Shown: positions 5,370 to 34,319 of the stretch, piece by piece
Numbering within the stretch: position 1 is the stretch's first letter
Layout: each line of letters begins with the position of its first letter
Source: Ruania suaedae
GTDB taxonomy: Bacteria > Actinomycetota > Actinomycetes > Actinomycetales > Beutenbergiaceae
DNA: 64,000 nucleotides
Assembly: GCF_021049265.1 (NCBI RefSeq)
Contig: NZ_CP088018.1
Span: 2,542,001-2,606,000 of the forward strand
Reading direction: 5' to 3'
Translations under genes and position numbers: made by a program
Notes under the pieces: generated by a model
What the model was told of the DNA's origin: nothing
What the model saw: the letters and a program-made list of their open reading frames with translations, nothing else
Database searches by the model: none

Positions 5370-8261
<2,892 letters not shown>

Positions 8262-8382
8262 GCACTACTCCCGGGTCGGTCCGATCAGCGCCAGGCGGCA
8301 CCGATGCACCCTCCATGGTATGCGAGAGCGTCCACGGCGTGGCACCGCCGATCGCTGCCGGCAGAACCGGCGGTCGGGCACC

Positions 8383-9609: not shown

Positions 9610-9677
9610 GACAGCCACAGTAGATCGCCGCACCGACACGGTCCCGGCGCCGCTGTCTCGACGTGCTCACGCAGAGG

Positions 9678-10373
9678 TCAGGCAGTGGCCTCCGCCGGCG
9701 GTTCGTCGCTGCCGGCCTCGGTGGCGGTGTAATTCAGGCGGATCACCCCGTAGGTCCACCCGCGGCGGTTGTAGACCACGCACGGCTGCATCGTCTCGGA
9801 GTCCACGAACAGGAAGAACGGGTGACCGACGAGCTCCATCTCCGCCAGCGCCTGGTCCACCGTCATCGGCGCGGTCTCGTGGACCTTCTGCCGGATGATC
9901 ACCGGGGAGTCGCCCAGCTGGGCCTCCACCGCCACGCCCGGCTCAGTGGGAGCCTGCGGGGTGAACCCGTCGTCGGGGTCCTCCTGCGGGGCGGGGTCCT
10001 CGTGCACCTGCTGCGTCAACGCCTCCAGGTCCGGCGCCGGAACGGGTGGGGAGTCGGGCCTGCGGCCGTGGTGGGACTTGCGCCGGTCCCGCGCGCGCCG
10101 CAACCGCTCGATCAGTTTCGCCGTGGCCAGGTCGAGCGCGCCGTACCGGTCCGACGCCGCCGCCTCCGCCCGCACGACCGGCCCCTTGGCGCGGACGGTG
10201 AGCTCCACACGTTCGGCCCGCTCCGCCATCCGCGGGTTGTTCTCGTGGGACACCTCGACGTCGACGCGCTGGGCGTAGGGAGACAGCTGTGGCACTTTGG
10301 CCAGCTTCTCCTCGGCGTGGCGACGGAAACGCTCCGGCACCTCGGTGTGACGGCTGACCACGATGATCTCCAT
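9678..10373 (-). CDS. hpf: Ribosome hibernation promoting factor, long form
   Basis: 231 residues. An N-terminal S30AE domain (about 1-105; MEIIVVSRHTEVPERFRRH through LDLATAKLIERLRRARDRR) is joined by a Pro/Asp-rich linker to the C-terminal dimerisation domain (about 165-222; MTVDQALAEMELVGHPFFLF, then YNRRGWTYGVIRL). Long HPF binds the decoding centre of idle 70S ribosomes and pairs them as 100S dimers in stationary phase. The ATG at 10373 is preceded by GGAGG with 5-nt spacing, which rules out the 24-residue upstream extension. It lies between comF and the glycosylase gene, the same position relative to secA and comF as Rv3241c. Confidence 0.93.
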   Translation of the reverse strand: MEIIVVSRHTEVPERFRRHAEEKLAKVPQLSPYAQRVDVEVSHENNPRMAERAERVELTVRAKGPVVRAEAAASDRYGALDLATAKLIERLRRARDRRKSHHGRRPDSPPVPAPDLEALTQQVHEDPAPQEDPDDGFTPQAPTEPGVAVEAQLGDSPVIIRQKVHETAPMTVDQALAEMELVGHPFFLFVDSETMQPCVVYNRRGWTYGVIRLNYTATEAGSDEPPAEATA

Positions 10374-10564
10374 GAGGACCTCCACAGGTCGTTCCGGCTG
10401 GTCCCTCGGGCTGCTCCACCCGGGGATTGCTGTGCGCCGCGCCAAGAGTGCGCGGCGTCCTACGAGGCGATATCACCTCCCCGGCCCCGGCACGGGCGGC
10501 GCGGGGCGCCGAACGCGGTGACGGGGTGAAGCTCCATGACATGACGCTAGTCCACCTCGGGCGG

Positions 10565-11338
10565 TTACGACAGCCTGGGCGGCGCCGTGTCCTGACCCGG
10601 GGCCGGCGTGGCCGCCAGCACCACGGCGCCGAGCACTCGCGCCCCGGCCCGTTCCAGGCTGGTCCGGGCGGCGTCGAGCGTGGCGCCGGTGGTGACGACG
10701 TCGTCGACGAGCAGGCAGGGCGTGCCGGGCGGAACCGGCCCCAGGCACCGCACCGCCTCACCGGTCGCGCGCCGGCGCCCCCGTGCGCCCAGGGCATGCC
10801 CCGATCCGCCCCGCCGGCGCAGCAGGTCGGCCACCCAGACCGGCCGCCCGGACGCGCGCGCGAGCGAGTCACCCACGGCGCGCGCCAGCGTGAGTGCGAC
10901 CAGGCGACGTCGCCACCGGCGGCGCCACCCGGACGGGGCGGGCACCACCACCAGCGCCGGCTCTGCGGCAGCCGCGCCCACCAGCTCCTCGGCCAGCCCG
11001 GTCACGCCGCGCGCGACCAGCGCCGCCAGCGGCCGGTCGAGATCGGGCCGGCCGCCGGACTTCCAGGCGAGCACCACCCGCTGCACCGGCCCGGCGTAGG
11101 GGCCCAGTGACCACACCGGCAATCCCAGCGCCGGCATCTGCTCGTCCACGGCGAGGAACACGGTCAATTCCTCACACCGCTGCGCCGGCCCCGTCAGCAT
11201 CGACGCGCAACGCCGGCACAGGCTCACGTCCGGGGCCTCACAGCCGGGGCAGGTGCGGGGCAGCACGAGGGCGAGCAGGTCCCGCATCGCTTCGAGCAGC
11301 ACCGCGAAGGGTGGCATACCGGCGCCGGAGGTGGCCAT
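10565..11338 (-). CDS. ComF-family phosphoribosyltransferase-like protein
   Basis: 257 residues. The N-terminal zinc-ribbon cysteines are CPGCEAPDVSLCRRC (about residues 29-43). The C-terminal type I phosphoribosyltransferase fold carries the PRPP-binding loop CLLVDDVVTTGATLDAA. ComF proteins are linked to DNA uptake in naturally competent bacteria; in actinobacteria the gene is conserved next to lpqB-mtrBA with an unclear job. Start uncertain: the ATG at 11338 is used; the ATG at 11317 (MPPFAVLLEAMRDLL) would also keep every motif, and neither has a strong Shine-Dalgarno. An 81-bp gap separates it from lpqB upstream. Confidence 0.85.
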   Translation of the reverse strand: MATSGAGMPPFAVLLEAMRDLLALVLPRTCPGCEAPDVSLCRRCASMLTGPAQRCEELTVFLAVDEQMPALGLPVWSLGPYAGPVQRVVLAWKSGGRPDLDRPLAALVARGVTGLAEELVGAAAAEPALVVVPAPSGWRRRWRRRLVALTLARAVGDSLARASGRPVWVADLLRRRGGSGHALGARGRRRATGEAVRCLGPVPPGTPCLLVDDVVTTGATLDAARTSLERAGARVLGAVVLAATPAPGQDTAPPRLS

Positions 11339-11419
11339 CGGCCCAGGATGGCGCCCGACGGCGCAGCCCGCCGGGGCGTGACCGGCGCCTGTGGACACGG
11401 GCACCACCGCCCGCCCCGG

Positions 11420-13117
11420 TCAGCCGGCGAAGGTGGGGTCCGAGGCTCCGGTGGCCAGCTGGGCCCACCCGTTCCCGGACCGGCCGTAGAGGAGGCCCTC
11501 CTCGGTGGTGAGGAAGAGGTCGCGCTCCCCGCTACCGGCCGCGATCGCCTCGGCGTCGGCCACGCTCGGCAGGCGCGTCACCGGGCCTCCGAGAGGTACC
11601 AGGTGCACGGTCTCGGTGCCCCGGGTGATGCCCAGCACCGCCACGGTGACCGGGTCGACCCACACCAGATCGGTGATCCCGTCGATGCCGCGAGAGGGTG
11701 CCAGGGAGTCGCCGAGCGACTCCGGGACGCCATCGGCCGTGCGCACCACGGAGAAGACCAGCAGCTGCGTGGCACCGTCCTGCTCGACCACCACCGCGAG
11801 GCGGGCACCGTCACGGCTCGCTCGCAGCGCGCGCACCTGCTGCCCCTCCAGCGCCGGCGCCGTCACGGTCGCCAGGCCGGTCCCGGGGCGCGCCACGACG
11901 AGCTCGCCCGGGTTCTCCTGTTCGCCGGTCCAGGCCCAGCCACGCGGGTCGTAGGAGGGCGCGAGCAGGTCGCTTCCCAGGTGCAGGCGCTCCGCTCCCC
12001 CGCCGGCGGTCGGCACCGTCACCAGAGCCGAACCGCCGGACAGTGCCACGGCCGGGCCGTCGTCGTAGGGCAGAGCGGGATCGCTCAGCTCGAGCCCACC
12101 CACGTCGGCCGCGTCCTCGAGGGGAACCAGCTCGGAACCGTTGAAGGTGGCCAGCACGTTGTCCTCGGTGAGCACGGTCGGGACGCGGCCGGCGGGCCGG
12201 TCCACGACCAGGTCGGTGCGCGGGCGGGCATCGAGCGTGACCCCGTCCACCGTCACCTCGGCCGACTGCACCTGCGGCAGCGCCGTCAGGGTCTGGCTGA
12301 TCTGGGCCAGCAGCAGCTCGCGGTCGTCGGAGCCGGCCGAGCGGACCTCCGCCGTCAACGGCACGGTCGCCACACCTGCCGAGACGGTGACCGAGCCGAT
12401 GGACAGCGCCGTCCCGGCCGGGATCGCCGAGACCACGGCGGGCCGCAGCCACTCCGAGGCCCCGGCGAGGAGGCTGCGCATCACGTAGGTGGCGGCATTG
12501 CGTTGCGGGAACCAGCGCACGTCCGGCACCAGCGCCGTCTGGTCGGAGGAGACGAAGTACAGCGGCGTCTGGGTGTACAGGGTGCTGAAGTTGACTTCCG
12601 AGATCAGGATGCCGTCCGGGAGGGCGCCGATGCGCCACTCGCCCTGGGAGGTCTGGTCGAGCTCGTAGGTCAGGGTGGTGGTGGCGCCGGGACTGGCCGG
12701 GGTGTAGACCCCGACGGCGTCCACGGTGGCCGCCACCGTGGCGGTCACCTCGACCACGCCCTCGCTCGGTTCGGCGAACCGCAACGGCGCCGACCCGTCG
12801 TAGATGAGGACCTGTTCGGCCGGCGCCCACGCGCCGGCCGCGGCGGAGGTGAGGTACTCGCGGGCCTGCACGTAGTCGTCGGAGCTGCCGGCCACCGACG
12901 CGGAGTGGAATCCGCGCACGATGCTCGCCGGGCCGTCGCCGGGGTTGGGGGCCTCGCCGGCGACGTAGCCCACGCCCTCGTCCAGGCCCGCCTCCACCCC
13001 TTCCTCCACCGGCCCGGAGGTCGGCACCCGGGAGCAGCCGGCCACGGCGAGCAGCGCGGCGCACACGAGCAGTGCGAGCACTTGACGTGCTCGGCGCGTT
13101 CTGGTGACGGCGGTCAT
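11420..13117 (-). CDS. lpqB: Lipoprotein LpqB, MtrAB-associated, GerMN domain
   Basis: 565 residues. A lipoprotein signal peptide ends in the lipobox VAGC (lipidated Cys about residue 28). An N-terminal LpqB domain, a GerMN domain (about 190-310; ISEVNFSTLYTQTPLYFV and QTLTALPQVQSAEVTVDG) and a C-terminal beta-propeller-like region follow. In mycobacteria LpqB sits outside the membrane and modulates the MtrB sensor. The start overlaps the mtrB stop by 4 bp (ATGA), so mtrA-mtrB-lpqB is one translationally coupled operon. Confidence 0.93.
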   Translation of the reverse strand: MTAVTRTRRARQVLALLVCAALLAVAGCSRVPTSGPVEEGVEAGLDEGVGYVAGEAPNPGDGPASIVRGFHSASVAGSSDDYVQAREYLTSAAAGAWAPAEQVLIYDGSAPLRFAEPSEGVVEVTATVAATVDAVGVYTPASPGATTTLTYELDQTSQGEWRIGALPDGILISEVNFSTLYTQTPLYFVSSDQTALVPDVRWFPQRNAATYVMRSLLAGASEWLRPAVVSAIPAGTALSIGSVTVSAGVATVPLTAEVRSAGSDDRELLLAQISQTLTALPQVQSAEVTVDGVTLDARPRTDLVVDRPAGRVPTVLTEDNVLATFNGSELVPLEDAADVGGLELSDPALPYDDGPAVALSGGSALVTVPTAGGGAERLHLGSDLLAPSYDPRGWAWTGEQENPGELVVARPGTGLATVTAPALEGQQVRALRASRDGARLAVVVEQDGATQLLVFSVVRTADGVPESLGDSLAPSRGIDGITDLVWVDPVTVAVLGITRGTETVHLVPLGGPVTRLPSVADAEAIAAGSGERDLFLTTEEGLLYGRSGNGWAQLATGASDPTFAG

Positions 13118-21527: not shown

Positions 21528-22109
21528 GTGGCAGGCGAACGGACCGACAGTGCAGGCGGCGCGCGCCTCGCACTCATCGAGACCGGGATCCGGAGTTTCG
21601 GCCGGTCCGGATTCGGCGTGGGGCTGCGCGAGGTCGCGCTCGAGGCGGGACTGACGGCGGGTTCGATCACGTATTTCTTCGGGGGGAAGAAAGGGCTGGT
21701 CGCCGCCTGCGACGAGCACGTCATGGCCGAGGTGCGGGCACAGCTGCCCGCGATCCTCAGCTCTCGGAAGAAGACCGCACGGCTGCGCGGTGACGCGCAA
21801 CGGCACCTCGCCAATCTCGAGTACCTGATGCGGGCGTTGCGGGAGTCCCCGGCGGTGCTGGCCGAGATGGAGGAGCTGCTGACCGGCGTCGCCTGCCGCC
21901 AGCTCGAGCACGCCTCGACGACGCCTCCGGATCGTGTCGAACTACAGGCGAGAGCGGCGGAGGTGGTCCGGCGATCACTCGGCATCGCCATGCTCGACCA
22001 TGCGCTCGAGCCACCCCGCACGGCCGCTGACCTCGCCGCCTTCGTCACGAGCAGCCGGGACCTCTCCCAGCAACTCGCCAGTGAACTCGCTACGGATTCA
22101 CCACCGTGA
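21528..22109 (+). CDS. TetR-family transcriptional regulator
   Basis: 193 residues. N-terminal TetR HTH with LREVALEAGLTAGSITYFFGGKKGL (recognition helix LTAGSITYFF), and a helical C-terminal domain with no recognisable ligand motif. The GTG at 21528 is preceded by AGGAGG (21518-21523) at 4-nt spacing; an ATG at 21524 is out of frame. A TAGTAT hexamer at 21484-21489 is a candidate -10 box without a clear -35. The 251 bp between the DUF58 stop and this start contains nothing else recognisable. Its 3' end overlaps the convergent sigma-factor gene by 20 bp, so antisense interference is possible. Target unknown; the neighbouring sigma factor and surface protein are obvious candidates. Confidence 0.82.
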   Translation: MAGERTDSAGGARLALIETGIRSFGRSGFGVGLREVALEAGLTAGSITYFFGGKKGLVAACDEHVMAEVRAQLPAILSSRKKTARLRGDAQRHLANLEYLMRALRESPAVLAEMEELLTGVACRQLEHASTTPPDRVELQARAAEVVRRSLGIAMLDHALEPPRTAADLAAFVTSSRDLSQQLASELATDSPP

Positions 22110-24015
22110 ACGTGACCGAGTACCAGGCTCCCTCGCGGTCGGACTGGAGGTCCACATAGCGCACGGACATCGTGGCCGGCCCTGGCACGTGCGGGCTGCT
22201 GACGAAGGTCATCGGGGACCCGGAGGCCTCGTGCACGAAGGATGAGACCTGGTCGTCACGGCGGAACTGCATCCCCCAGCCGACATCGCCGACGGCGGTG
22301 ACCAGCACGTCATCGAGGTCGCCGTTGCCATTGACGTCACTGGTCTCGAGCGGCACCTGCTGACCGTCGGCGATGTTCGTGATCTGCGGCGCCAGCAGAT
22401 CGATCGGTGCACTCGTGCCCAGCGCGGAGACCTCGCCGTCGACGATCTGACGTGCTGAGAAGGTCACGCCCTCGGCCACGTCGATGCTCGGCGGCAGCAC
22501 ACTCCAGCTACCGGCGTCGTCGACCTGCGTGGTCGCGATGACCTCTCCCGCGGCCGAGAGGATCTCGACGGCGGCCCCGGGCTCGCCGCTGCCCGCGAGC
22601 GTGGGCATCACGCGCGAGACGGTCTCCTGGAACGGGTCGAAGGTGGGCGGGGACGGGGGCTCCGGGTCCTCGGTCGGGTCCTCGGTCGGGTCCTCAGTGG
22701 GGTCCTCGGTCGGGTCCTCAGTGGGGTCCTCGGTCGGGTCCTCGGTGGGGTCCTCGGTCGGGTCCTCGGTGGGGTCGTCGGTCGAGTTCTCAGTCGGGTC
22801 CGGGGCAGGCACGTCCGGCGCAGGCAGCACCGGCGGCGCAGGCAACTCCATCGCGGGAGGCAGGTCCAGTCCGGGGCTGGGTGCCGGTGCCGGAGCGCGT
22901 CCCGGGGCAGGTGCTGGGGCGGGTGCGGTCGAGTCCGGCGGCGGCCCTTCGCCGTCGTCCGGCTCGGCGTCCGGCTCGTCGTCCGAGTCGTCGTCCGGCT
23001 CGTCCTGGCCGTCAGGCGCCGACGGCGGTGCCGGAGCCGGTGCGGGAGGCGGCGCCGGAGCCGTGGCAGCAGGCGGCGCCGGCTCCGAGGCCTCGCCGAG
23101 CCCGCCCCCGAGCAGGGCGACAGCCGGGATCGCCACGATCACCACGGCCACCGCTGCGGCACCCGCGATCTGGCCGCGCGGCCTGGTCGCCAGCCAGGAG
23201 CCCGCGGCCAGATGTCCCACCTGAGGGACGGCACCCGCGAGGAGAAGCAGCATGCCGGCCTCGTGCAGGCGCGAGGACGCGTGGGACAGATCGAGCAGCA
23301 CCGCCTGACAGTGCGTGCAGTCCTCGACGTGATCCTCGATGCCGCGGGCGCGGCGGTCGCTGACCTTGCCGCGCTGCCACCCGGCCAGACGAGCCACGAA
23401 GGGACGGCATTGCGCCGGAGCGCCGGTGCTGTTGAGGTGGGCACCGAGCCATTCGGTGCGCAGGCGCTCGCGGGCGCGATACGCGAGGGCCGAGGTGCTA
23501 CCCGCGCTCAGCCCCAGATCAGCGCCGACCTCGCGCAGCGAACGCCCCTCGACGTCCACCAGCCAGAGCACCTGCCGCCAGCGCTCGGGCAGGGTCCGGA
23601 AGGCCGTCGTGAGCAGCATCCGATCGAGCACCGCCCCCTCGGACCCGGGGGCCGCCTGATCGGACAGGGTCTCGACCTCGAGCGCAGCCGTCTGACCATC
23701 CGGCCGGAGGCGGGCGGCCGCCCGCCTGACCGAGGTGGTGATGTAGGCGCGGACGTGCTCCTGCGGCCCGCCCCCCGAGCGCACGGCCTGCAGGACCTGC
23801 AGGAAACCCAGCTGGACGGCGTCCTCCGCATCCGTGGAGCTCGTCACGCGCCGGGCCGCCGCGAGCGCCGCCGGGCGGTGACGGCGGTAGATCTCCTCGA
23901 AGGCGCCGACGTCGCCGCCGCGGACCCGATCCAGCGCGGCCGAGTCGTCGGCGCTCATGCCGACGTCTGCGTCCTCAATCATCGCCGGCACCGGCTCCGC
24001 GGGTGCGTAGGGCAT
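22090..24015 (-). CDS. ECF-type sigma factor fused to zinc-finger, membrane and extracellular Ig-like domains
   Basis: 641 residues in one intact frame. Order: sigma-70 region 2 (about 27-95; FEEIYRRHRPAALAAARRV, DAEDAVQLGFLQVL), region 4 (about 135-190; LPERWRQVLWLVDVEGRSL and the HTH LREVGADLGLSAGSTSALAY), an HxxxCxxC motif (H229, C233, C236) like the zf-HC2 zinc finger of anti-sigma factors, and a membrane helix (about 283-303). Outside come a Pro/Ala/Asp linker (310-405), a DPTE repeat (406-451), an Ig-like Big domain (about 461-545) and a C-terminal beta domain. Sigma factor and anti-sigma-like anchor are thus one polypeptide, as in ECF groups with C-terminal extensions. Signal-triggered proteolysis could release the sigma part (inference). 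It is divergent from the giant surface protein gene, a likely target. Alternative starts: M12, M20. Confidence 0.88.
   Translation of the reverse strand: MPYAPAEPVPAMIEDADVGMSADDSAALDRVRGGDVGAFEEIYRRHRPAALAAARRVTSSTDAEDAVQLGFLQVLQAVRSGGGPQEHVRAYITTSVRRAAARLRPDGQTAALEVETLSDQAAPGSEGAVLDRMLLTTAFRTLPERWRQVLWLVDVEGRSLREVGADLGLSAGSTSALAYRARERLRTEWLGAHLNSTGAPAQCRPFVARLAGWQRGKVSDRRARGIEDHVEDCTHCQAVLLDLSHASSRLHEAGMLLLLAGAVPQVGHLAAGSWLATRPRGQIAGAAAVAVVIVAIPAVALLGGGLGEASEPAPPAATAPAPPPAPAPAPPSAPDGQDEPDDDSDDEPDAEPDDGEGPPPDSTAPAPAPAPGRAPAPAPSPGLDLPPAMELPAPPVLPAPDVPAPDPTENSTDDPTEDPTEDPTEDPTEDPTEDPTEDPTEDPTEDPTEDPEPPSPPTFDPFQETVSRVMPTLAGSGEPGAAVEILSAAGEVIATTQVDDAGSWSVLPPSIDVAEGVTFSARQIVDGEVSALGTSAPIDLLAPQITNIADGQQVPLETSDVNGNGDLDDVLVTAVGDVGWGMQFRRDDQVSSFVHEASGSPMTFVSSPHVPGPATMSVRYVDLQSDREGAWYSVTFTVVNP
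22663..22800 (-). repeat. 12-bp in-frame tandem repeat coding (Asp-Pro-Thr-Glu)n in the sigma-factor linker
   Basis: About ten units of a 12-bp repeat (reading GGTCCTCGGTCG or close variants on the plus strand) encode DPTE four-residue units, with one diverged unit (NSTD). Because the unit is a multiple of three, copy-number change would lengthen or shorten the extracellular stalk without breaking the frame. No spacers exist, so this is not a CRISPR array. Confidence 0.9.
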
Positions 24016-24357
24016 TCACCTGCCCAACATAACCCGGCCGCCGATCACCGCATTGATGATCCCGCCCCGGCGTCACGATTTCGTCAATAGCGCCACGCCC
24101 GGCGATCATGACGCGAGAGTGCGATATGTCACAGTCCGATCCCGCGAACTTCACGATCGTTCAGGAATGTCGTCTGACTTTTCCGGCCGTGCCGCCGCGC
24201 ATTTCCCGAACAGGTACACGGCCGTTCAATTGCGGCTTTCCCCGGATATCCCGTCCGGCCCCACTCACGCTTTCCGAGAGCCCCTAGCCTCGAATTTGCC
24301 AGCCAGCCGCGCGGTCGCGGATGGGCACGCGTCGACGGAAAGTTCTCTCACACGATC
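24016..24357. other. 342-bp divergent intergenic region between sigma-factor gene and giant surface-protein gene
   Basis: This stretch is visibly less GC-rich than its surroundings and must hold the promoters of both flanking genes. The 7-mer TCACGAT occurs twice (24073-24079 and 24151-24157). CGAACTT at 24145-24151 resembles an ECF -35 element, but the nearest CGTC lies too far away for normal spacing, so I do not call a promoter. No open frame or stable hairpin was noticed. Confidence 0.5.
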
Positions 24358-27300
24358 ATGCTGCACTCTGCCCTGCGCCTCCCGCTCGCCGCGGTTGCGA
24401 CACTCTCCTTGGTCCTGACGCTGCTGGTGGCGCCCTTCGGCCTCGCCCCCGCTCAGGCCGACGGCACACCCGATATCCAGGTCTCGCAGAACACGCCCAC
24501 CGAAGCCCTCTACGGCGGGCCCGTCCCGGTCACGCTCACCGCGTCCAACGACACCGAGACCGACGCATACAACGTCAGCGTCGTGGACGTCATCCCGGCG
24601 GGCGTGAGCATCGGCAACGCCTCCCCGGCGCCTACGCGCACCGTCGAGCGCGAGGACGGCAGCACAGTCGTCATCTGGAGCAACATCTCGGACCTGCTGG
24701 CCGGCACCGACGTCACCCTCACCTACGAGCTGGTGCCCGCCGCGGAGTCCTTCGTGATCGGTGACACGCTGACCAACGACGCGACCGTGCTGGCGCACTC
24801 CGACGCACGTGCCCTGCCCGCCTTCGACGCCGCCGGCAACCCGGTCGAAGGCAGCTTCACCTCCTTCGCCGGCACCTCCGCCGCCTCCGAACTCGTCCCG
24901 TTCCGGATCACCAAGTCCGAGCCCAGCCCCGAGGCCGAGCTGCTGCGCGGCGTGCACGACCAGCAGACCGTCTACACCCTCACCGTCGACAACAACCTCC
25001 TCCACGCCAGCGAGCACTTCACCGTGGTCGACTATCTGCCCGCGGGGCTGGAGTTCCTCGGCTGCGGCGAGGTCGACAGCTCCACCGCCGAGACCGAGGA
25101 GTACACCGGTTCCGGCCGGCTCGACACGATCACCGCCCCGGCCATGGAGTTCCCGTGCCCGGCCCCGAGCAACGTGCAGACCGTCACCACCGACCCCGAC
25201 GGCCCGGGCCCGCTCGAGGCCGGCGTCTACACCCGCGTCACCTGGGACGCGGCGAGCCTGGCCGAGGCCCTCGGCTCGGCCTCCCTCGGCGCGGCCGGGT
25301 CCTTTTCCTTCCAGTACGTCGCCGCAGTCCCGCTTCGCGAGAACGTCCTGGCCGAGCTCGACGAACCGACCGCCAACCTGGACAACAACACCGGCGACCT
25401 GACCACCGACGAACAGGAACTGCGTAACGGCGCCTCCGCGCAGGGCACCACCCTGGGCACCACGGCCGAGGCTTGGGACGACCACGTCGTCACCGCCGAG
25501 GACGTGGCGATCGTGAAGTCCGTGGACACCGGCGGCGACGTCGAGCAGGGCTCGACCTCCACCTGGACCCTCGACATCCGCTCCAGCGAGTACGCGCAGG
25601 AGACCGGGACCATCACAGTCACCGACACCCTGCCCGCCGCACTAGACCTCACCGGGGCGACCCCCGGCGTCGCCTCCCAGGCCGAGCAGCCCGACGGCAC
25701 GGTGCTGCTCACGTGGGAGCTGCCCGGGTTCACCGAGCCGAACAGCGACACCCGGATCACCTACACCACCGAGACCCGCCAGAACTACCGCGGCAGCGAG
25801 GCTCCGGTGGCAGCCAATGACAGCTGGACCAACACGGTCGACCTGGCCACCGACGCCACGATCATCACCGACAACGACGCGAGCACCGAGGTGCTCGGCA
25901 TCGTCGATGACTCCGCCGCCGGGCAGAACACCCGCGGCCCCGCACTCAGCAAGGCCGTGGCCGACCGGACCGCCGCGATCGGCGACTGCACCGACGCCGC
26001 ACTCACCTTCTCCGAGGACCAGGCCGACGGCCAGTTCCGTGCGGGTGACCGGGTGTGCTGGCGGGTCACCGTCGACTACCCCACAAACCTGGACACCCTC
26101 TCGCCGCTGGTGCGCGACTTCCTCCCGGAGGGCTTCACGTTCGAGGGCTGGGAGGTCACGGATGCGAACACCCTCTCCACCGACGGGATCGACTTCACCG
26201 AGGACGGCTCGGTCCTGACCTGGGACCTCGAGGACGTCGCCTCCACCGGCGAGACGTTCGAGGTGGTCGTCTCGACCATCGTCACCGACCCGAACGCCGC
26301 CAGCTCGGCCGACATCGTGGAGAACCTGGCCAAGCTCAGCTACCGCAACAGCGACGGCCGTGCCTTCCAGGACCGCGACATGGCGGACGTGGAGTACCTC
26401 GCGCCCACCGTCACCCTCGACAAGTCGGTCGACGTCGAGATCGTGCAGGGCGGTGACGTCGCCACCTACACGGTCGCCGTCAGCAACAGCGACGACCTGG
26501 ACGCGACCAACGCCTCCGTGCGCGACCTCCTGCCCCCGGGCATCACCTGCGCGGAGGTCACCGACCCCGGGGCGACCACCTGCAGCGATGACGGCGAGAC
26601 CGCGCAGCTGCAGTGGGACGGCCTCGACCTGCCCGCGGGCGAGACGCTCGAGCTCACCTACCAGGTGGCCTTCCCCGACACCTACGCCCCCGGCACGGCC
26701 CTGGACAACCACGCCGGCGTCCGCCAGTTCGAGACCGGAACCAACACCGGCGAGCCGTTCGTGCACGTCCCGGCCGAGAACATCGACCCCGAGCTCACGC
26801 CCAACACCACCCCGGCCGACGACCCGGCCACGGTGACCGTGACCGGCGCCGAGACCCTCAAGTCCCAGACCACCGGCCTGGACGAGGAGGGCAACGCCGG
26901 CGCCGACGAGGCCACCATCGGCGAGACGATCGACTACACCGTCACCGCCACCGTGCCCGAGGGCACGACCGTCGAGGGCGCCCAGCTGGTCGACACCCTC
27001 CCTGCGGGTGTGCGCCTCGAGGGCGGATCGGTCGCCACCCTCAACGGTGAGCCCCTGCCGGACGGCTTCGGCACCGTGGTCGACAGCACCGGGGCGGACG
27101 GCACCGTGGTGACCGTGACCTTCCCGGCCACCTACACCAACGCCGAGGGCAGCGGCGAGGACGTCCTCGAGCTGACCTTCACCGTCACCGTCCTCGACGA
27201 CGCCGCGCTCACCGCCGGCGACGCCCTGACCAACACCGCTCAGCTCACCTGGGACGGCGGTGGGACCTCCCCGGCCGAGGTGACCACCACGATCGTCGAG

Positions 27301-30300
27301 CCCGACCTCGCAGTCGCCAAGAGCAACGACGTCCCCGACGGCTTCGTCGAGCCCGGGCAGCTCGTCGGCTACACCGTCGAGGTGACCAACGACGGCGCAG
27401 CCTCCACCGCGTACGAGGTCGCCGTGACCGACGTGGTGCCCCAGGACGTCACCCCCGTCGACGCCGAGGGCGAGGCGATCACCAGTGGCACCGCCACGCT
27501 GCCCGGGGGCGGGGAGTGGAACGCCTCCACCCGCACCATCACCTGGCAGCTGGCCTCGCTCGCCCCCGGCGACTCCGAGACCTACACCTACGACGCGCGC
27601 ATCTCCGACCCGCTCACCAGCGGCTCCGAGCTGACCAACGCCGTCACGGTCACCGGCACCTCGATGCCCGGGACCACCGCCGACGAGCGGACCCCCGAGG
27701 CCGGTGTGCCCGGCTACCAGGACTCCGCCTCCTCCACCCTGGAGGGCCCGGTGGTCACCGTCGCCAAGGCGGTCGACCCGGCCGAGGCCACCGTCGGTGA
27801 GAACCTCACCTACACCCTGGACGTGTCCGTGCCGGCGCTGACCCGCGCCTTCGACACGGTCGTGCTCGACGAGCTGCCCTCGGGCGTCACCTTCGACGAG
27901 CTCGTCAGCGTGACCTGCGCCGACTGCGAACCGGCCATCGACGCCGATCTCATCGGCACCGACGGGCAGACCGTCGGCTTCTCCCTCGGCGACATCGCAC
28001 CGGCCCAGACCGACCGCACCCTCACCCTCGTCTACACCGGGTACGTGGACTCGGCGGCCGGCGCCGGGGACACGGTGACCAACACCGCGGCCGCGTACTA
28101 CAACAGCACCGACGAGGTCACCGGCCCGCCCGCTGAGGTTCCCTCCCCCGAGGACTTCGACTCCTCCACCCCGCCCGGCGAGGCGAGCGTGGACATCGAG
28201 GAGCCGGCGCTGAGCCTGGACAAGGACGTGAGCGGTCAGGTCGGCGACTCCGACCAGCGCCGCGCCACCCCGGGCGAGACCCTCACCTACACCGTGGACA
28301 TCACCAACACCGGCGGTTCGGACGCCTTCGACCTGACCGTCGAGGACAGCCCGGACGAGCGACTGCTCGACCTGGCCGACGAGACCGACCTCAGCCAGGC
28401 CGGCGGCGTCACCGTCACCGACGGTGACCACACCGACGGCTCCCTGGCCTGGCAGGTCGCCGGGCCACTGGCCCCCGGGGAGACGCTCACCCTCACCTAC
28501 TCCCTCACCATCCCGGCCGACTGGGACGAGTCCCAGGAGGTCGATGGTCCCGAGCTGACCAACACCGCCGTCGTGACCTCGGCCTACGGGCTGGACGAGG
28601 ACACCCGCACCGACAACCCCGGGCGGGAGTACCCGGTGTACGAATCCGAGGAGGACGTCGTCGAGGTCGAGCTGGACCTCGCCTCGATCGGCGACACCCT
28701 CTGGTACGACGTGAACGGTGACGGCGTCATCGACGACGGTGAGCCCCGCCTCGGCGGCGTCGACGTGACGATCACCTACCTCGGCGCGGACGGGGTCCCC
28801 GGGGGCGGTGACGATGAGACGATCACCGTGACCACGAACGAGAACGGTGAGTACCTGGCCGAGCACCTGCCCGGCGGTGAGTACATCGTCTCGGTCGATA
28901 CCGAGTCCGAGACCCTCCTCGAGCAGGGCCTGGCCCCGACCTACGACCTCGACGACGGCACGGACGGTGCCGACGCCGTCTGGCAGGGCTCCCTCGGCGA
29001 GGCCGAGGCCAAGCGGGACGTCGACTTCGGCTTCCGCGGCTCGGCCGGTATCGGCGACACGGTCTGGTTCGACCAGAACCGCGACGGCGTGAAGGACGCC
29101 GGCGAGGCCGGCATCCCCGGCGCCGCGGTCACGGTGACCTGGGCCGGCCCCGACGGCGACCTGTCCACCACCGAGGACAACGTCACCTACACCACCACCA
29201 CCGACGAGTCCGGCACCTACCGCGTCGGGGCCCTCCCGGCCGGCGAGTTCAGCGTCGAGGTGGACCTACCGGACGGGTACGACAGCTACGTCCAGGTCAG
29301 CGGACCCGGCGGTGAGGACGACGCACTCGACTCCTCCTCCCAGGTCACCCTGACCACCGGCGAGGAGAACGAGGACCAGGACTTCGGCTACGCCGGCACC
29401 GGCTCCCTCGGTGACACCGTCTGGCTGGACCAGGACGGCGACGGCACCCAGAACGGTGACGAGCCGGGGATCGCCGGCGTCACCGTCGAGGCCGTGCTCA
29501 CCGGCCCCGGCGGCGAGGAGACGACGCTCACCACCGTGACCGACGAGAACGGCGGGTACCTCTTCGAGAACCTGCCGGCCGGCGACTTCACCGTCACCGT
29601 CACCGGGCCGCTGCCCGGCGCCGTGGAGAACACGGGCTACCCCGACGGCGGCGGCGACTCCACCTCCGCCGGCACCCTGGCCGACGGCGAGGACAACCTC
29701 GCGCAGGACTTCGGCTACTACGCCGAGGGTCTGCTGGGTGACCGCGTCTGGTGGGACATCGACGCCGACGGCGTCCAGGACGACGACGAGCCGGGCCTGT
29801 CCGGTGTCACCGTCACCGCCACCGGCCCGAACGGCCTGTCGTTCACCACGACCACCGGCGAGGACGGGGAGTACCTCTTCGAGAACCTCCCCGACGGTGA
29901 GTGGACCGTGACCGTGACCGACGGCGTGGCCGAGGGCTTCGCGCCCACCTTCGACGCCGACTCCGGGACCGAGAACCCGGACGAGACCTCGACCGTGGAG
30001 CTGATCGGCTCCGACCTGGAGCAGGACTTCGGCTACACCGGCACCGCCGCCCTCGGCGACACCGTCTGGTTCGACCGCGACGGCGACGGCAACCAGAGCG
30101 ACGGCGAGCCCGGCCTGCCCGGTGTGGGCATCACCCTCACCTGGGCCGGACCGGACGGTGAGCTGGGCACCGATGACGACCTGGTGCGCACCACCACCAC
30201 CGATGCCGAGGGCCGGTACGGCTTCGAGAGCCTGCCCGCCGGCGAGTTCACGGTCTCGGTGGACCCGCAGACCCTCCCCGAGGGGATGCGCGCCACGTTC

Positions 30301-32868
30301 GACCGGGACGACGAGGCCGATGGCACCACCGACGTCTCGCTCGAGACCGGGCAGACGCTGGACGACGTCGACTTCGGCTACCGGGGCGCGTCCGCCATCG
30401 GCGACACCGTCTGGCTGGACCAGGACCGCGACGGTGAGCTCGGCCCGGACGAGCAGGGCCTGTCCGGCGTGGACGTCACCGTCACCTGGGCCGGACCGGA
30501 CGGCCGGTTCGGCACCGGCGACGAGGAGACCTTCTCGACGACGACCGACGCCGACGGGCGCTACCTGGTGGACCACCTGCCCGCCGGTGAGTACCGCGTG
30601 GACGTCGACACCGACACCCTCGCCCCCGGCCTGGCCGCCACCTACGACGAGGACGGCGGGCTGGACTCCTCCAGCGAGCTCACCCTCGGGGCGGACGAGG
30701 TGCACGACAGCGCCGACTTCGGCTACGCCGGCGAGGGCGTGGTGGGCGACACCGTCTACCTCGACCTCGACGGTGACGGCAGCCAGGGCGGGTCCGAGCC
30801 GGGTGTGCCCGGCCAGCCGGTCGAACTCGTCTGGGCCGGCCCCGACGGCGAACCCGGTACGGAGGACGACCTCACCTTCACCACGGTGACCGACGAGGAG
30901 GGCCGGTACTCCTTCGAGGGGCTGCCCGACGGCCGGTACCAGGTGTCCGTGCCCGGCGGCATCAGCGAGGCCGCCGAGAACACGGCCGATCCCGACGGCG
31001 GAGCTGACTCGGTCGCCGAGCTCACCCTGGGTGAGCAGGAGGGCCGCGAGCGTCTTGACCAGGACTTCGGCTACCAGGGCCTGAACACCCTCGGTGACCG
31101 CATCTGGTGGGACGACAACGGCGACGGCGTCCAGGACGAGGGCGAGCCGGGCCTGCCCGGCGTCAGCACCGCCGTCACCTGGTTCGGTCCGGACGGCGAG
31201 CCGGGCACCAGCGATGACGTCCTGATCCCCTCCCCGCTCACCGACGCCGAGGGCCAGTACCTGGTCACCGGTCTGCCGGACGGCAGCTACTCGGTCGAGG
31301 TGACCGGCGGCGTGCCCGAGGGCCTGCAGATCAGCCACGACGCCGACGGTGGTGAGGATGGCCCGGACGGCATCTCCATCACCACCCTGCAGTCCGAGGA
31401 AGGCGTGGGCGTCGAGGACCTGGAGCAGGACTTCGGCTACACCGGCACCGGCGTGATCGGTGACACCGTGTGGCTGGACCTGGACGGCAACGGCGTGCGC
31501 GACGAGGGTGAGCCCGGCCTGACCGGGACCACGGTCACGCTGACCTGGGCCGGCCCCAACGGTGACGCCTCCACCACCGAGGACAACCGCACCTGGACCA
31601 CGCAGGTCGACGCCGAGGGCCACTACTCCTTCGACGGCCTGCCGGCGGGCGAGTTCGGGATCGAGCTCACCGATCTGCCGGCGGGGCTGACCCCGACGGC
31701 GGACCCGGACGGCGGGGCGGACTCCTCCTCCGCCCTCACCCTGACCACGGGTGAGGAGAACCTCGACCAGGACTTCGGCTACACCGGCGATGCCAGCGTG
31801 GGTGACACGATCTGGCTGGACGTCAACGGCAACGACCAGCAGGACGCCGGTGAGCCCGGTGTTCCCGGGGTCACGGTGACCGTGGCCTCCCCCGGCTCCG
31901 ACGGCGTGCCCGGCACGGCGGATGACCTGATCATCACCACGGTCACCGATGCCGAGGGTCGTTACCTGGTGGAGAACCTGCCCCCGGGGACCACGATCGT
32001 CTCCTACGACGCCGGTGACCTGCCCGAGGGCACCACGCCCTCCTGGGACTCCGACGGCGAGGACCCCACCACCACCACACAGCCGCTGGCCACCGGTGAG
32101 GACATCCGCACGGTCGACTTCGCGATCGTCGGCACCGCCACGGTCGAGGGCCTGGTGTGGGAGGACACCGACGGCGACGGCACTCAGAACGGCGACGAGC
32201 CGGGGATCGGTGACGTGACCGTCGTCGTGACCTGGCACGGGCCGGACGGGCCGGTCGAGCTCGAGGTGGCCACGGACTCCGACGGTCGCTGGGAGCTGCC
32301 GAACGTGCCCAGCGGTGAGTGGAGCGCCGTCGTGGATCCGGGGACCGTACCCGGCGGACTGGTGCCGAGCACGCCGGGCGAGGACTCCGTGACCGTGCCG
32401 CCGAACGGCTCAGGCTTCCTGGAGCACGGCTTCGTGCCGACCGGCAGCATCGGCGACCTCGTCTGGCACGACAAGGACGGCGACGGCGAGCGCGATGAGG
32501 GTGAGCCGGGCCTGAACGGGGTCACGGTGATCCTCACCGACGCCGAGGGCAACGAGATCGCCAGGACGGTCACCGACGAGAACGGGCACTACCTGTTCGA
32601 GGACGTGCCGCCGGGTGACTACACGGTCGAGCTCGACCGCTCGAGCCTGCCGGAGGGCTACGGCCCGACCAACGGGACGCTGAGCATCGACGTCACGGTC
32701 GGGCCCGGCGAGGACGTGCTCACGGCGGACTTCCCGCTGGCGCCCGGGTACGACCTGCCCAGCACCGGCGTGAACCCGCTCGGGATCGCGGTCGCAGCAC
32801 TGCTGCTCCTCGGGCTCGGTGGCTGGCTGGTGACGCGCCGACGCGCTGGTGAGACCGCCGGCGCCTGA
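24358..32868 (+). CDS. Giant LPXTG-anchored surface protein with DUF11-type domains and SdrD B repeats
   Basis: 2836 residues, intact. Signal peptide about 1-34 (LTLLVAPFGLAPAQADG). Residues about 39-1440 hold some nine DUF11/isopeptide-type beta domains (recurring forms such as YTVEVTNDG and DTLPAGVRL). About twelve SdrD B-type domains follow, at residues 1443-2795, each opening with a form of IGDTVWLDxDGDGxxDxGEPG, an Asp-rich Ca2+-binding loop. The C-terminus has the sortase signal LPSTG (2800-2804), a membrane helix and an Arg-rich tail. In Gram-positives such proteins are covalently attached to peptidoglycan and act as rigid stalk-like adhesins. No sortase gene is in the window. It is divergent from the fused sigma factor and ends in a strong terminator. 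Confidence 0.93.
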   Translation: MLHSALRLPLAAVATLSLVLTLLVAPFGLAPAQADGTPDIQVSQNTPTEALYGGPVPVTLTASNDTETDAYNVSVVDVIPAGVSIGNASPAPTRTVEREDGSTVVIWSNISDLLAGTDVTLTYELVPAAESFVIGDTLTNDATVLAHSDARALPAFDAAGNPVEGSFTSFAGTSAASELVPFRITKSEPSPEAELLRGVHDQQTVYTLTVDNNLLHASEHFTVVDYLPAGLEFLGCGEVDSSTAETEEYTGSGRLDTITAPAMEFPCPAPSNVQTVTTDPDGPGPLEAGVYTRVTWDAASLAEALGSASLGAAGSFSFQYVAAVPLRENVLAELDEPTANLDNNTGDLTTDEQELRNGASAQGTTLGTTAEAWDDHVVTAEDVAIVKSVDTGGDVEQGSTSTWTLDIRSSEYAQETGTITVTDTLPAALDLTGATPGVASQAEQPDGTVLLTWELPGFTEPNSDTRITYTTETRQNYRGSEAPVAANDSWTNTVDLATDATIITDNDASTEVLGIVDDSAAGQNTRGPALSKAVADRTAAIGDCTDAALTFSEDQADGQFRAGDRVCWRVTVDYPTNLDTLSPLVRDFLPEGFTFEGWEVTDANTLSTDGIDFTEDGSVLTWDLEDVASTGETFEVVVSTIVTDPNAASSADIVENLAKLSYRNSDGRAFQDRDMADVEYLAPTVTLDKSVDVEIVQGGDVATYTVAVSNSDDLDATNASVRDLLPPGITCAEVTDPGATTCSDDGETAQLQWDGLDLPAGETLELTYQVAFPDTYAPGTALDNHAGVRQFETGTNTGEPFVHVPAENIDPELTPNTTPADDPATVTVTGAETLKSQTTGLDEEGNAGADEATIGETIDYTVTATVPEGTTVEGAQLVDTLPAGVRLEGGSVATLNGEPLPDGFGTVVDSTGADGTVVTVTFPATYTNAEGSGEDVLELTFTVTVLDDAALTAGDALTNTAQLTWDGGGTSPAEVTTTIVEPDLAVAKSNDVPDGFVEPGQLVGYTVEVTNDGAASTAYEVAVTDVVPQDVTPVDAEGEAITSGTATLPGGGEWNASTRTITWQLASLAPGDSETYTYDARISDPLTSGSELTNAVTVTGTSMPGTTADERTPEAGVPGYQDSASSTLEGPVVTVAKAVDPAEATVGENLTYTLDVSVPALTRAFDTVVLDELPSGVTFDELVSVTCADCEPAIDADLIGTDGQTVGFSLGDIAPAQTDRTLTLVYTGYVDSAAGAGDTVTNTAAAYYNSTDEVTGPPAEVPSPEDFDSSTPPGEASVDIEEPALSLDKDVSGQVGDSDQRRATPGETLTYTVDITNTGGSDAFDLTVEDSPDERLLDLADETDLSQAGGVTVTDGDHTDGSLAWQVAGPLAPGETLTLTYSLTIPADWDESQEVDGPELTNTAVVTSAYGLDEDTRTDNPGREYPVYESEEDVVEVELDLASIGDTLWYDVNGDGVIDDGEPRLGGVDVTITYLGADGVPGGGDDETITVTTNENGEYLAEHLPGGEYIVSVDTESETLLEQGLAPTYDLDDGTDGADAVWQGSLGEAEAKRDVDFGFRGSAGIGDTVWFDQNRDGVKDAGEAGIPGAAVTVTWAGPDGDLSTTEDNVTYTTTTDESGTYRVGALPAGEFSVEVDLPDGYDSYVQVSGPGGEDDALDSSSQVTLTTGEENEDQDFGYAGTGSLGDTVWLDQDGDGTQNGDEPGIAGVTVEAVLTGPGGEETTLTTVTDENGGYLFENLPAGDFTVTVTGPLPGAVENTGYPDGGGDSTSAGTLADGEDNLAQDFGYYAEGLLGDRVWWDIDADGVQDDDEPGLSGVTVTATGPNGLSFTTTTGEDGEYLFENLPDGEWTVTVTDGVAEGFAPTFDADSGTENPDETSTVELIGSDLEQDFGYTGTAALGDTVWFDRDGDGNQSDGEPGLPGVGITLTWAGPDGELGTDDDLVRTTTTDAEGRYGFESLPAGEFTVSVDPQTLPEGMRATFDRDDEADGTTDVSLETGQTLDDVDFGYRGASAIGDTVWLDQDRDGELGPDEQGLSGVDVTVTWAGPDGRFGTGDEETFSTTTDADGRYLVDHLPAGEYRVDVDTDTLAPGLAATYDEDGGLDSSSELTLGADEVHDSADFGYAGEGVVGDTVYLDLDGDGSQGGSEPGVPGQPVELVWAGPDGEPGTEDDLTFTTVTDEEGRYSFEGLPDGRYQVSVPGGISEAAENTADPDGGADSVAELTLGEQEGRERLDQDFGYQGLNTLGDRIWWDDNGDGVQDEGEPGLPGVSTAVTWFGPDGEPGTSDDVLIPSPLTDAEGQYLVTGLPDGSYSVEVTGGVPEGLQISHDADGGEDGPDGISITTLQSEEGVGVEDLEQDFGYTGTGVIGDTVWLDLDGNGVRDEGEPGLTGTTVTLTWAGPNGDASTTEDNRTWTTQVDAEGHYSFDGLPAGEFGIELTDLPAGLTPTADPDGGADSSSALTLTTGEENLDQDFGYTGDASVGDTIWLDVNGNDQQDAGEPGVPGVTVTVASPGSDGVPGTADDLIITTVTDAEGRYLVENLPPGTTIVSYDAGDLPEGTTPSWDSDGEDPTTTTQPLATGEDIRTVDFAIVGTATVEGLVWEDTDGDGTQNGDEPGIGDVTVVVTWHGPDGPVELEVATDSDGRWELPNVPSGEWSAVVDPGTVPGGLVPSTPGEDSVTVPPNGSGFLEHGFVPTGSIGDLVWHDKDGDGERDEGEPGLNGVTVILTDAEGNEIARTVTDENGHYLFEDVPPGDYTVELDRSSLPEGYGPTNGTLSIDVTVGPGEDVLTADFPLAPGYDLPSTGVNPLGIAVAALLLLGLGGWLVTRRRAGETAGA
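28684..32743 (+). repeat. Array of about 12 SdrD B-type coding repeats
   Basis: Twelve units of roughly 100-125 codons lie within the surface-protein gene. Openings counted by eye lie near residues 1443, 1562, 1682, 1796, 1897, 2017, 2127, 2242, 2363, 2480, 2597 and 2697. The Asp-rich loop DGDG (or NGDG/DGNG) and the closing DFGY are conserved between units. The eleventh unit is divergent (VEGLVWEDTDGDG). The array is a natural site for recombination and assembly errors, but the frame is intact here. Confidence 0.85.
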
Positions 32869-32937: not shown

Positions 32938-33489
32938 TCAGGCGGCGCAGGGGTGAGCGCTCAGCAGCGGGACGAACTCCTGCTCCCAGGCGGCCCGGAC
33001 GAAAGCGTGCGCCTCGTCCTTGGTGCGTGGCCGCTTCGCGGTGAAGTCCAGCAGCGTGGCACCGAGCGCGTGGCGAACGATCTGCCGCGCGCGGGAGACG
33101 TCCTCGGGTGAGCCGGTGCCGATCAGGTACAGCACATGGGCGCTCAGCCGGGTGACGATCTGGTGGGCCAGCGGCGTGCCCAGAGCCAGGCTCCGGAAGG
33201 TGTAGTCCACGAACGGTGCCACCAGCACCGGGTCGTCGCGGTCCATCGCCGCCAGGCGGTCCGGGTGGAAGTGGCGCGGCACGGCCTCGTCGATCACCGT
33301 GTAGACCAGCCGGTCGCACTGCTCACGCAGGCCGGCCTTGCCCCCGAAGTGGTACTGCACGAGTCCGACCGCCACACCGGCGCGGGCGGCGATGGTGCGG
33401 ATGCTTGCCTCGAAGCCGTCGCTACCGAAGGTCTCAACGGCGACGGCCAGGAGGTGCTCCCTGGTCGGGGTGCGGGAGGTCGGGGTCAC
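32938..33489 (-). CDS. TetR-family transcriptional regulator (paralogue 1)
   Basis: 183 residues. HTH region IRTIAARAGVAVGLVQYHFG followed by GKAGLREQCDRLVYTVIDEA; C-terminal region TLLDFTAKRPRTKDEAHAFV. The GTG start at 33489 gives MTPTSRTPTREHLL. It is closely similar along its whole length to the gene at 33732-34319 (shared VGLVQYHFGGK, CDRxVY, HFHxxxL, AFVRxAWExEFxPL), so the two arose by duplication. It converges on the surface-protein gene across the hairpin terminator. Ligand and targets unknown. Confidence 0.83.
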   Translation of the reverse strand: MTPTSRTPTREHLLAVAVETFGSDGFEASIRTIAARAGVAVGLVQYHFGGKAGLREQCDRLVYTVIDEAVPRHFHPDRLAAMDRDDPVLVAPFVDYTFRSLALGTPLAHQIVTRLSAHVLYLIGTGSPEDVSRARQIVRHALGATLLDFTAKRPRTKDEAHAFVRAAWEQEFVPLLSAHPCAA

Positions 33490-33555
33490 GGAACTCGCTC
33501 GCGTCCTCGTGCCGTGGCACGGTCGGGGTCAGGATGTTCACTCAGACTACCCGCC

Positions 33556-33574
33556 GTTTACTAGAAATCTAAAC
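33556..33574 (-). promoter_or_regulatory. Candidate promoter/operator of TetR paralogue 1
   Basis: An AT-rich 19-mer with inverted ends (GTTTA ... TAAAC) stands out in GC-rich sequence about 67 bp upstream of the GTG at 33489. On the minus strand it contains TAGATT, a plausible -10 hexamer (33566-33571). The overlap of a short palindrome with a -10 element would fit TetR autoregulation. This is suggestive only; the inner positions are not symmetrical. Confidence 0.35.
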
Positions 33575-33619
33575 TACCTTCGGCCCGCGCCCGGCACGCC
33601 TCTCTCCCCGGCCGGATCC

Positions 33620-33698
33620 GCTGACCGCACCGACATGCATGCGTGGAGTGCGGGGCCATGCCGCCGCAGACCGGCGCAGCCGTGTCTCTCCGGTCAGC
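33620..33698 (-). repeat. 79-bp palindromic interspersed repeat, copy C
   Basis: Exactly 79 bp, beginning GCTGACCG and ending CGGTCAGC on the plus strand. Its reverse complement matches copy A (36602-36680) at about 70 of 79 positions by eye. It lies between the two TetR paralogues, in the opposite orientation to copies A and B. Confidence 0.85.
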
Positions 33699-33731
33699 GC
33701 GGGCGCGGCGGGGTGGCCCGGTCCACAGCGC

Positions 33732-34319
33732 TCATCGGAGCTCGGGTCTGCCCAGCACGCCGGCCCCGAGGATCAGCGGCAGGAACTCCTTCTCCCAGGC
33801 GCGGCGGACGAAGGCGACGGCCTCCTCCGGGCTCTGCGGGCGGGCGATCGCGTAGTCGAGGAGCGTCGCGCCCAGGCCGAACCGGACGGTCTCCCGCGCG
33901 TGCTGCAGCACCTGTGGGCCACCCTCGGGGCTCACCCCGGTCAGGCCCTGGACGTGCGCCGCCAGCCGCATGACGACCTGCGGGGCGAGCGGGCCGCCCT
34001 CCCCCAGGCTGCGCATCAGGTAGTGGAGGATGTGCCCCAGCAGCGGCAGATCGTCCGGTTCGAGCGCGACGAGGCCGGCGCGGTGGAAGTGGGTGGGCAG
34101 GGCGACATCGAGGGCGGCATAGACCTGCCGGTCGCAGGCGGAGCGCAGACCCTCCTTGCCGCCGAAGTGGTACTGCACGAGTCCGACCGCGGAACCGGCC
34201 CGGGCGGCGATCGCCCGGATGCCCGCGTCGAATCCCTCGCGGCCGAACAGCTCGATGCCGGCGTCGATCACTCGCTGCTTGGCCGGGGTGGCAGAGCGGG
34301 GGTAGGTCACAGTGGGCAT
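33732..34319 (-). CDS. TetR-family transcriptional regulator (paralogue 2)
   Basis: 195 residues. HTH region IRAIAARAGSAVGLVQYHFG, then GKEGLRSACDRQVYAALDVA; C-terminal segment TLLDYAIARPQSPEEAVAFV. The ATG at 34319 gives MPTVTYPRSATPAKQRVIDA. It is a duplicate of the gene at 32938-33489. Paralogue 1 lies 242 bp downstream with repeat copy C in the gap; the SpoIIM gene ends 119 bp upstream of its start. Targets unknown; self-regulation and control of the neighbouring surface protein are possible. Confidence 0.83.
   Translation of the reverse strand: MPTVTYPRSATPAKQRVIDAGIELFGREGFDAGIRAIAARAGSAVGLVQYHFGGKEGLRSACDRQVYAALDVALPTHFHRAGLVALEPDDLPLLGHILHYLMRSLGEGGPLAPQVVMRLAAHVQGLTGVSPEGGPQVLQHARETVRFGLGATLLDYAIARPQSPEEAVAFVRRAWEKEFLPLILGAGVLGRPELR

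Follow-up and report, generated by a model that had tools for sequence, protein, structure and literature searches.

A membrane-anchored, ECF52-like sigma factor with an adhesin-like ectodomain in Ruania suaedae

In the actinobacterium Ruania suaedae, a 641-residue reading frame begins as a sigma factor and ends as a set of extracellular beta domains, and it lies back to back with the gene of a giant surface protein. Is this frame a single regulator, what does it sense, and does it control its neighbor? The window analyzed here is the whole 64,000-nucleotide stretch of contig NZ_CP088018.1 (positions 2,542,001 to 2,606,000, forward strand), to which the coordinates below refer unless a locus is named. 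The source genome comprises 3.56 Mb in a single contig, and among the contigs of its genus are some from Ruania rhizosphaerae and R. albidiflava. A first-pass annotation, made from the letters alone, had read the frame as sigma regions 2 and 4, an HxxxCxxC motif, a membrane helix, a stalk and extracellular beta domains. All of these parts were confirmed, and they are arranged as follows.

22090..24015, minus strand: whole gene of a 641-aa membrane-anchored ECF sigma factor (ECF52-like); open frame, plan shared with 61 homologues
23710..23892, minus strand: sigma-70 region 2, residues 42-102; Pfam PF04542 (Sigma70_r2), E=6e-9
23458..23604, minus strand: sigma-70 region 4, residues 138-186; Pfam PF04545 (Sigma70_r4), E=1.5e-8, and PF08281, E=4e-8
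23308..23409, minus strand: zinc anti-sigma (ZAS) finger, C203-x25-H229-x3-C233-x2-C236; invariant ligands, ChrR profile match, zf-HC2
23203..23259, minus strand: weak hydrophobic segment, residues 253-271, not counted as membrane-spanning; Kyte-Doolittle 1.52
23113..23169, minus strand: main predicted transmembrane helix, residues 283-301; Kyte-Doolittle 2.67, charge +2 before and -2 after
22651..23103, minus strand: disordered Pro/Asp/Thr/Glu-rich extracellular stalk, residues 305-455; pLDDT below 50
22393..22650, minus strand: Ig-like Big_6 domain, residues about 456-541; Pfam Big_6, E=6e-7 (match 462-508), model pLDDT 96.6
22093..22392, minus strand: second, C-terminal beta-sandwich, residues about 542-641, of no Pfam family; AlphaFold models
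22309..22338, minus strand: DVNGNGDLDD loop (residues 560-569), EF-like and acidic, a possible Ca2+ site judged from the conserved acidic loop

The N-terminal part is an ECF sigma factor with sigma2 and sigma4, lacks sigma3, and matches the NCBI ECF superfamily model TIGR02937 at E=7e-19. The start codon of the frame is uncertain, because good alignment with homologues begins only at about residue 20. A sequencing error that fused two genes, the alternative named in the first-pass annotation, is exceedingly improbable. One homologue (locus L029) is indeed split after the stalk, and a similar split has been reported for S. clavuligerus. However, almost every other homologue examined runs as a single frame with its domains in this order, across many genera and separate assemblies. 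The fusion was rejected on these grounds. The same order of parts recurs in the 61 homologues read, whose frames span about 430-1370 aa; the exceptions seen are the split in L029 and a substitution of the first cysteine in L090.

The finger that follows sigma4 reads from its sequence as a real and complete ZAS site. ChrR/RsrA-type ZAS domains are zinc-dependent anti-sigma domains. Pfam zf-HC2 covers residues 203-237 at 20.2 bits, slightly below the cut-off of 22.2, and the same model scores in 57 of 59 relatives. All four ligands (C203, H229, C233 and C236) are invariant among 22 homologues from the bacterial family; in an alignment of 59 members, H229, C233 and C236 stay invariant and 90% or more of the members have C203, while the HxxxCxxC motif is kept in every one of the 61 homologues read. 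A profile built from the alignment of the 22 family homologues matches the ZAS domain of ChrR, whose structure was solved together with its sigma factor (2q1z and 2z2s), with E about 4e-4. The geometry with which the finger might dock on the sigma regions is not readable from the full-length model, whose pTM is 0.39. At locus L090 (8642-11572), His stands in the place of the first Cys ligand (SEHQW), which may make this finger a His-His-Cys-Cys variant.

The helix at residues 283-301 is predicted to run from inside to outside. Because positive charge precedes it and negative charge follows it, the C-terminal part is placed outside the cell. The same pattern of hydropathy and charge is seen in many relatives, and the structural model places the helix at 287-302 with low confidence. 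A weaker hydrophobic stretch directly behind the finger also recurs in relatives. In the 641-aa protein, this segment (253-271) is more likely an in-plane or half helix, since the basic TRPRGQ loop after it should lie inside; the segment leaves the topology slightly open. Beyond the main helix comes the stalk, whose DPTE part corresponds to a 12-bp DNA repeat of 11.6 copies at 22663-22801 (TRF). A search for a second sigma copy in the same genome gave a match at 283 kb, which was rejected because nothing but the PTEEPTEDPTE linker of an HtaA surface protein had matched. This HtaA-domain LPXTG protein (L166:500-2647, about 282.5-284.6 kb of the genome) carries the same PTEEPTEDPTE-type linker as the sigma stalk, so that the linker is seen to be a general spacer of surface proteins in this genome.

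Structure prediction bears out the proposed beta domains: AlphaFold folds the last 190 residues into two beta-sandwiches with a pLDDT of 96.6. The Big_6 profile matches the staphylococcal biofilm-associated protein 7dm0. With the two-domain model as query, Foldseek returned the Ca2+-binding adhesin SiiE and a biofilm-associated protein at the top and a Ca2+-stabilised ice adhesin lower down, at TM-scores of only 0.3-0.4, as expected if two freely hinged domains are superposed as one body. These Big-domain adhesins resemble the ectodomain in fold and, for Big_6, in sequence; unlike the sigma protein, they are structural proteins without a transcription part. The acidic loop is retained as DxNxNG/DxDxDG in 7 of 16 aligned sensors, namely the orthologues and one paralogue lineage, and the sensor may depend on Ca2+. 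Orthologues are 68, 53 and 51% identical in the sensor versus 69, 64 and 60% in the sigma core. The sensor is therefore nearly as conserved as the core, which argues that it is under constraint rather than a passive tail. A homologous domain common to sensor and adhesin, as receptor and target, was considered and rejected, the adhesin being built of SdrD_B, DUF11 and DUF7927 domains. When the sensor was compared with the neighbor proteins at the homologue loci, it matched none save the split fragment in L029.

One-protein signalling from the surface to transcription, which the first-pass annotation had suggested, is supported as a reading of this protein, yet it is of a kind already published as ECF52 and ECF53. 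SCO4117 of S. coelicolor (ECF52) combines a sigma factor, zinc finger, membrane helix, Pro-rich stalk and carbohydrate-binding ectodomain, and its release by proteolysis or conformational change has been proposed (PMC5826349). The release mechanism suggested for the R. suaedae protein is this published proposal. Truncated SCO4117 consisting of the sigma part only is partly functional and activates its own gene (PMC5826349). The shared plan (sigma2-sigma4, zf-HC2, helix, Pro-rich stalk and extracellular domain in one actinobacterial protein) extends to the particulars described for ECF52: a fused ZAS finger after sigma4, with the C-x25-H-x3-C-x2-C spacing and the ChrR match; a transmembrane helix with positive-inside charge at 283-301; and a proline-rich C-terminal extension at 305-455. 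The two proteins differ in ectodomain, which is NPCBM in SCO4117 and Big_6 plus a second beta-sandwich here. They share only about 30% identity, and the clade of the 641-aa protein is separate in the tree. ECF53 and ECF48 are likewise C-terminal fusions with a zinc finger, one or two membrane helices and predicted proteolytic activation (PMC8999054), and for some members of ECF52/53 the literature describes a glycosyl hydrolase or carbohydrate-binding domain. In the feature comparison by Pfam, the 641-aa protein has no GH family, such as the glycosyl hydrolase domain in the ECF53 extension, and its ectodomain has no CBM family, such as the carbohydrate-binding domain of ECF52. The ChrR/RsrA-type factors have the same spacing of zinc ligands but are separate soluble proteins, whereas here the ZAS finger is fused to sigma factor and membrane anchor.

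Judged by domain plan and profile matches, the protein thus appears to belong to the ECF52 kind but to bear another ectodomain. The family profile retrieves the NPCBM proteins of three loci (L076-L078, family f26, read as Streptomyces) at about 1e-66; in one of them (L077), a TetR-like gene lies directly upstream, as in the reported atrA-SCO4117 arrangement. What was published already is the plan of sigma factor, finger, helix, stalk and ectodomain; what is new is the adhesin-like sensor and its gene surroundings. The literature search found no paper on Ig ectodomains of ECF sigma factors, no experiment on any Ig-bearing member and no established ligand for an ECF52-like sigma factor.

Relatives occur in 7 of 8 genomes of the genus, with up to four per genome, and in 15 of 24 genomes of the family; in the class, the profile search at E <= 1e-30 found them in 140 of 395 genomes and 34 of 138 genera. 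All named relatives are actinobacterial, the searches having covered genus, family and class. A Big_6 ectodomain is present in 21 of the 59 relatives scanned, and other clades carry ricin-B lectin, I-set Ig, NPCBM, DUF642, fn3 or DUF3344 domains instead. The proteins look, from their sequences, like one chassis with interchangeable ectodomains across the class. The R. suaedae protein is a genuine and well-conserved regulator; its kind has been published, and its ectodomain resembles adhesins.

How would such a protein work? Sequence and modeling give the domain order, the zinc ligands, the topology signals and the sensor fold; inhibition by the ZAS finger, proteolytic release, the ligand and the regulon we infer. 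The protein is probably a one-protein, ECF52-type transmembrane signalling device that is released by proteolysis and serves an envelope regulon. At the membrane, the ZAS finger fused to the N-terminal sigma factor would keep it inactive, while the transmembrane helix and the long disordered stalk would carry the two adhesin-type Ig-like domains to the cell wall or surface. There, the Ig domains may sense a change, such as binding of a ligand or polymer, mechanical load, or loss of Ca2+-dependent folding. This change would lead to cleavage of the extracellular part and then to regulated intramembrane proteolysis by an M50 site-2 protease, and the freed sigma2-sigma4 part would direct RNA polymerase to the envelope regulon. 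M50 proteases are encoded in the genome, but their presence says little, as they were also found in 14 of 14 control genomes. No site-1 protease or cleavage site was identified for the 641-aa protein.

Proteolysis is the expected route of activation for ECF48, ECF52 and ECF53. An alternative is a reversible conformational change of the fused ZAS finger, or loss of zinc or a redox change at it, which would activate the sigma factor without proteolysis. The profile match to ChrR, whose type of finger acts zinc-dependently, speaks for this, and publications on ECF52 mention conformational change as the other option. Against it stands the precedent of IutY (ECF243, Pseudomonas putida), a studied sigma factor fused to a membrane anti-sigma factor, for which proteolytic release was shown experimentally (PMC8999054). 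IutY itself differs in belonging to Gram-negative iron-starvation cell-surface signalling, in its other type of anti-sigma factor and in having no Ig ectodomain. Moreover, a sigma factor that stays tethered to the membrane would presumably be limited in the promoters within its reach. Activation without proteolysis accordingly seems rather unlikely.

Whether the device also controls the adhesin depends on the genes around it:

21528..22109, plus strand: TetR regulator A, convergent to the sigma gene; TetR_N; beside the sigma gene in L026, L027 and L116 (tblastn 48-50%)
24016..24357, no strand: divergent intergenic region of 342 bp, common to sigma and adhesin genes (from gene coordinates)
24150..24163, no strand: TetR-operator-like palindrome TTCACGATCGTTCA; motif scan
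24215..24228, no strand: second, weaker palindrome TACACGGCCGTTCA; motif scan
24358..32868, plus strand: 2836-aa LPXTG surface protein, DUF11 and pilin-type isopeptide domains, then 12 SdrD_B repeats; accessory neighbor
32938..33489, minus strand: TetR regulator B; TetR_N, TetR_C_25
33732..34319, minus strand: TetR regulator C; TetR_N; in L026/L027, the TetR next upstream of sigma matches it best, at 54% identity

The divergent giant surface protein is real and of a pilin/SdrD-like LPXTG type, and it holds all SdrD_B repeats found in its genome. As a conserved partner of the sigma factor it was rejected, since it is absent from the syntenic position at the orthologue loci of three Ruania genomes (L026, L027 and L116), where the sigma core is 60-69% identical. 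In R. rhizosphaerae (L026/L116) and in genome G003 (L027), the sigma gene occupies the same slot, with TetR A on one side and TetR, SpoIIM and RDD genes on the other, and at two of the three loci a TetR gene takes the adhesin's place. By this comparison of gene order, the adhesin appears to be an accessory neighbor and not part of the conserved system.

That the sigma factor senses the state of wall or adhesin and drives the divergent SdrD_B adhesin gene, as the first-pass annotation proposed, is unlikely in this specific form; control of the neighbor is possible, though not specifically supported. Beyond the shared intergenic region, the proposal can draw on the wider genus. Of the 8 sigma genes in three single-contig Ruania genomes, 4 have an LPXTG-anchor gene no farther than 10 kb away, where random placement predicts 0.8 (p=0.005), and 7 have one no farther than 15 kb away, where it predicts 1.2. 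These loci are partly related by descent, which makes the p-values optimistic. A 1270-aa DUF7507 LPXTG protein adjoins the L028 paralogue, and a Big_8 Ig surface protein is encoded directly downstream of the paralogues L035, L036 and L040. What is supported within the genus is thus a looser link between such sigma genes and the genes of large LPXTG surface proteins. The narrower claim is weakened by the missing adhesin at all three orthologue loci: the sister species keep their SdrD_B proteins elsewhere in the genome, and the LPXTG proteins near their sigma genes are of the unrelated DUF7507 type (1455 aa beyond RDD in L026 and L027; 2131 aa beyond TetR A in L116, where DUF58 also lies beyond TetR A). 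Nor do the orthologue upstream regions share a promoter motif; L026 and L027 have a block in common that the window lacks. A conserved sigma promoter drawn from these regions was rejected. One sigma-70-like site lies on the minus strand, with 9 of 12 matches. The published SCO4117 motif, CSGYN-17-SRHA, would give about 0.5 chance matches in 342 bp on both strands at simple base frequencies, so that a scan for it would be uninformative. The RNA-family search gave no match.

The flanking TetR regulators could instead be the main controllers of the adhesin, with the sigma factor serving another envelope regulon and the adjacency incidental. This possibility is more credible than sigma control of the adhesin, if still short of probable. 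Three TetR genes surround the sigma/adhesin pair, TetR genes are conserved at the locus, and in three species TetR-operator-like palindromes around TTGAACGNNNGTTCA precede the sigma gene. In a one-strand scan of the 64 kb, 2 of the 5 distinct places fitting TGAACGN3GTTCA with <=2 mismatches fall in the 342-bp intergenic region, and perfect or near-perfect copies precede the orthologous sigma genes in L116/L026 (TTGAACGATAGTTCA, L116:8858-8871) and L027 (L027:8534-8547). These palindromes, and the better copies before the orthologues, make TetR at least an equal candidate for control of the adhesin. However, the motif was noticed after the fact, and its matches in the whole window (11 versus 7.1 expected) are not above chance; TetR binding and sigma control can, moreover, coexist. 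The proteolytically released, ECF52-type device described above remains the preferred reading of the sigma protein.

A bolder extension would make this ECF52-like branch a dedicated surface-adhesion sensor, whose possibly Ca2+-dependent Ig domains monitor how large LPXTG proteins are loaded or assembled and directly determine how strongly the genes of these proteins are transcribed. We regard this as speculative and, on balance, improbable. If true, a single polypeptide would house an adhesin-homeostasis circuit; should the link to the adhesin fail, the protein is one more uncharacterized regulator of the ECF52-like type. The exchangeable ectodomains (Ig, lectin, NPCBM, DUF642 and fn3) form a natural set for probing which signals are perceived and how they pass through the membrane, and the Ig-type branch of Ruania, with large LPXTG genes nearby, allows a concrete test of whether a one-component sigma factor can sense surface structures.

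Several details of related loci were also observed. The Big_8 surface-protein genes at L035:10810-11886, L036:10851-11918 and L040:10830-12170 lie on the same strand as the sigma genes they follow; in L040, a collagen-binding domain accompanies Big_8, and in this sub-lineage a similar set of further genes then follows. Downstream of the adhesin in the window, 32938-34319 holds two related TetR genes in tandem, where the sister species have one. The split homologue in Ruania genome G001 (L029:8769-10576) consists of a 433-aa sigma frame that overlaps with a 175-aa Ig frame; it resembles the split reported for the S. clavuligerus SCO4117 orthologue, and either slippage within the stalk repeats or faulty assembly may explain it. 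At L028, two paralogous membrane-anchored sigma genes (6571-8394 and 9997-11820) point toward one another across a gap of about 1.6 kb, in which tblastn matches a TetR-like coding region (9260-9793).
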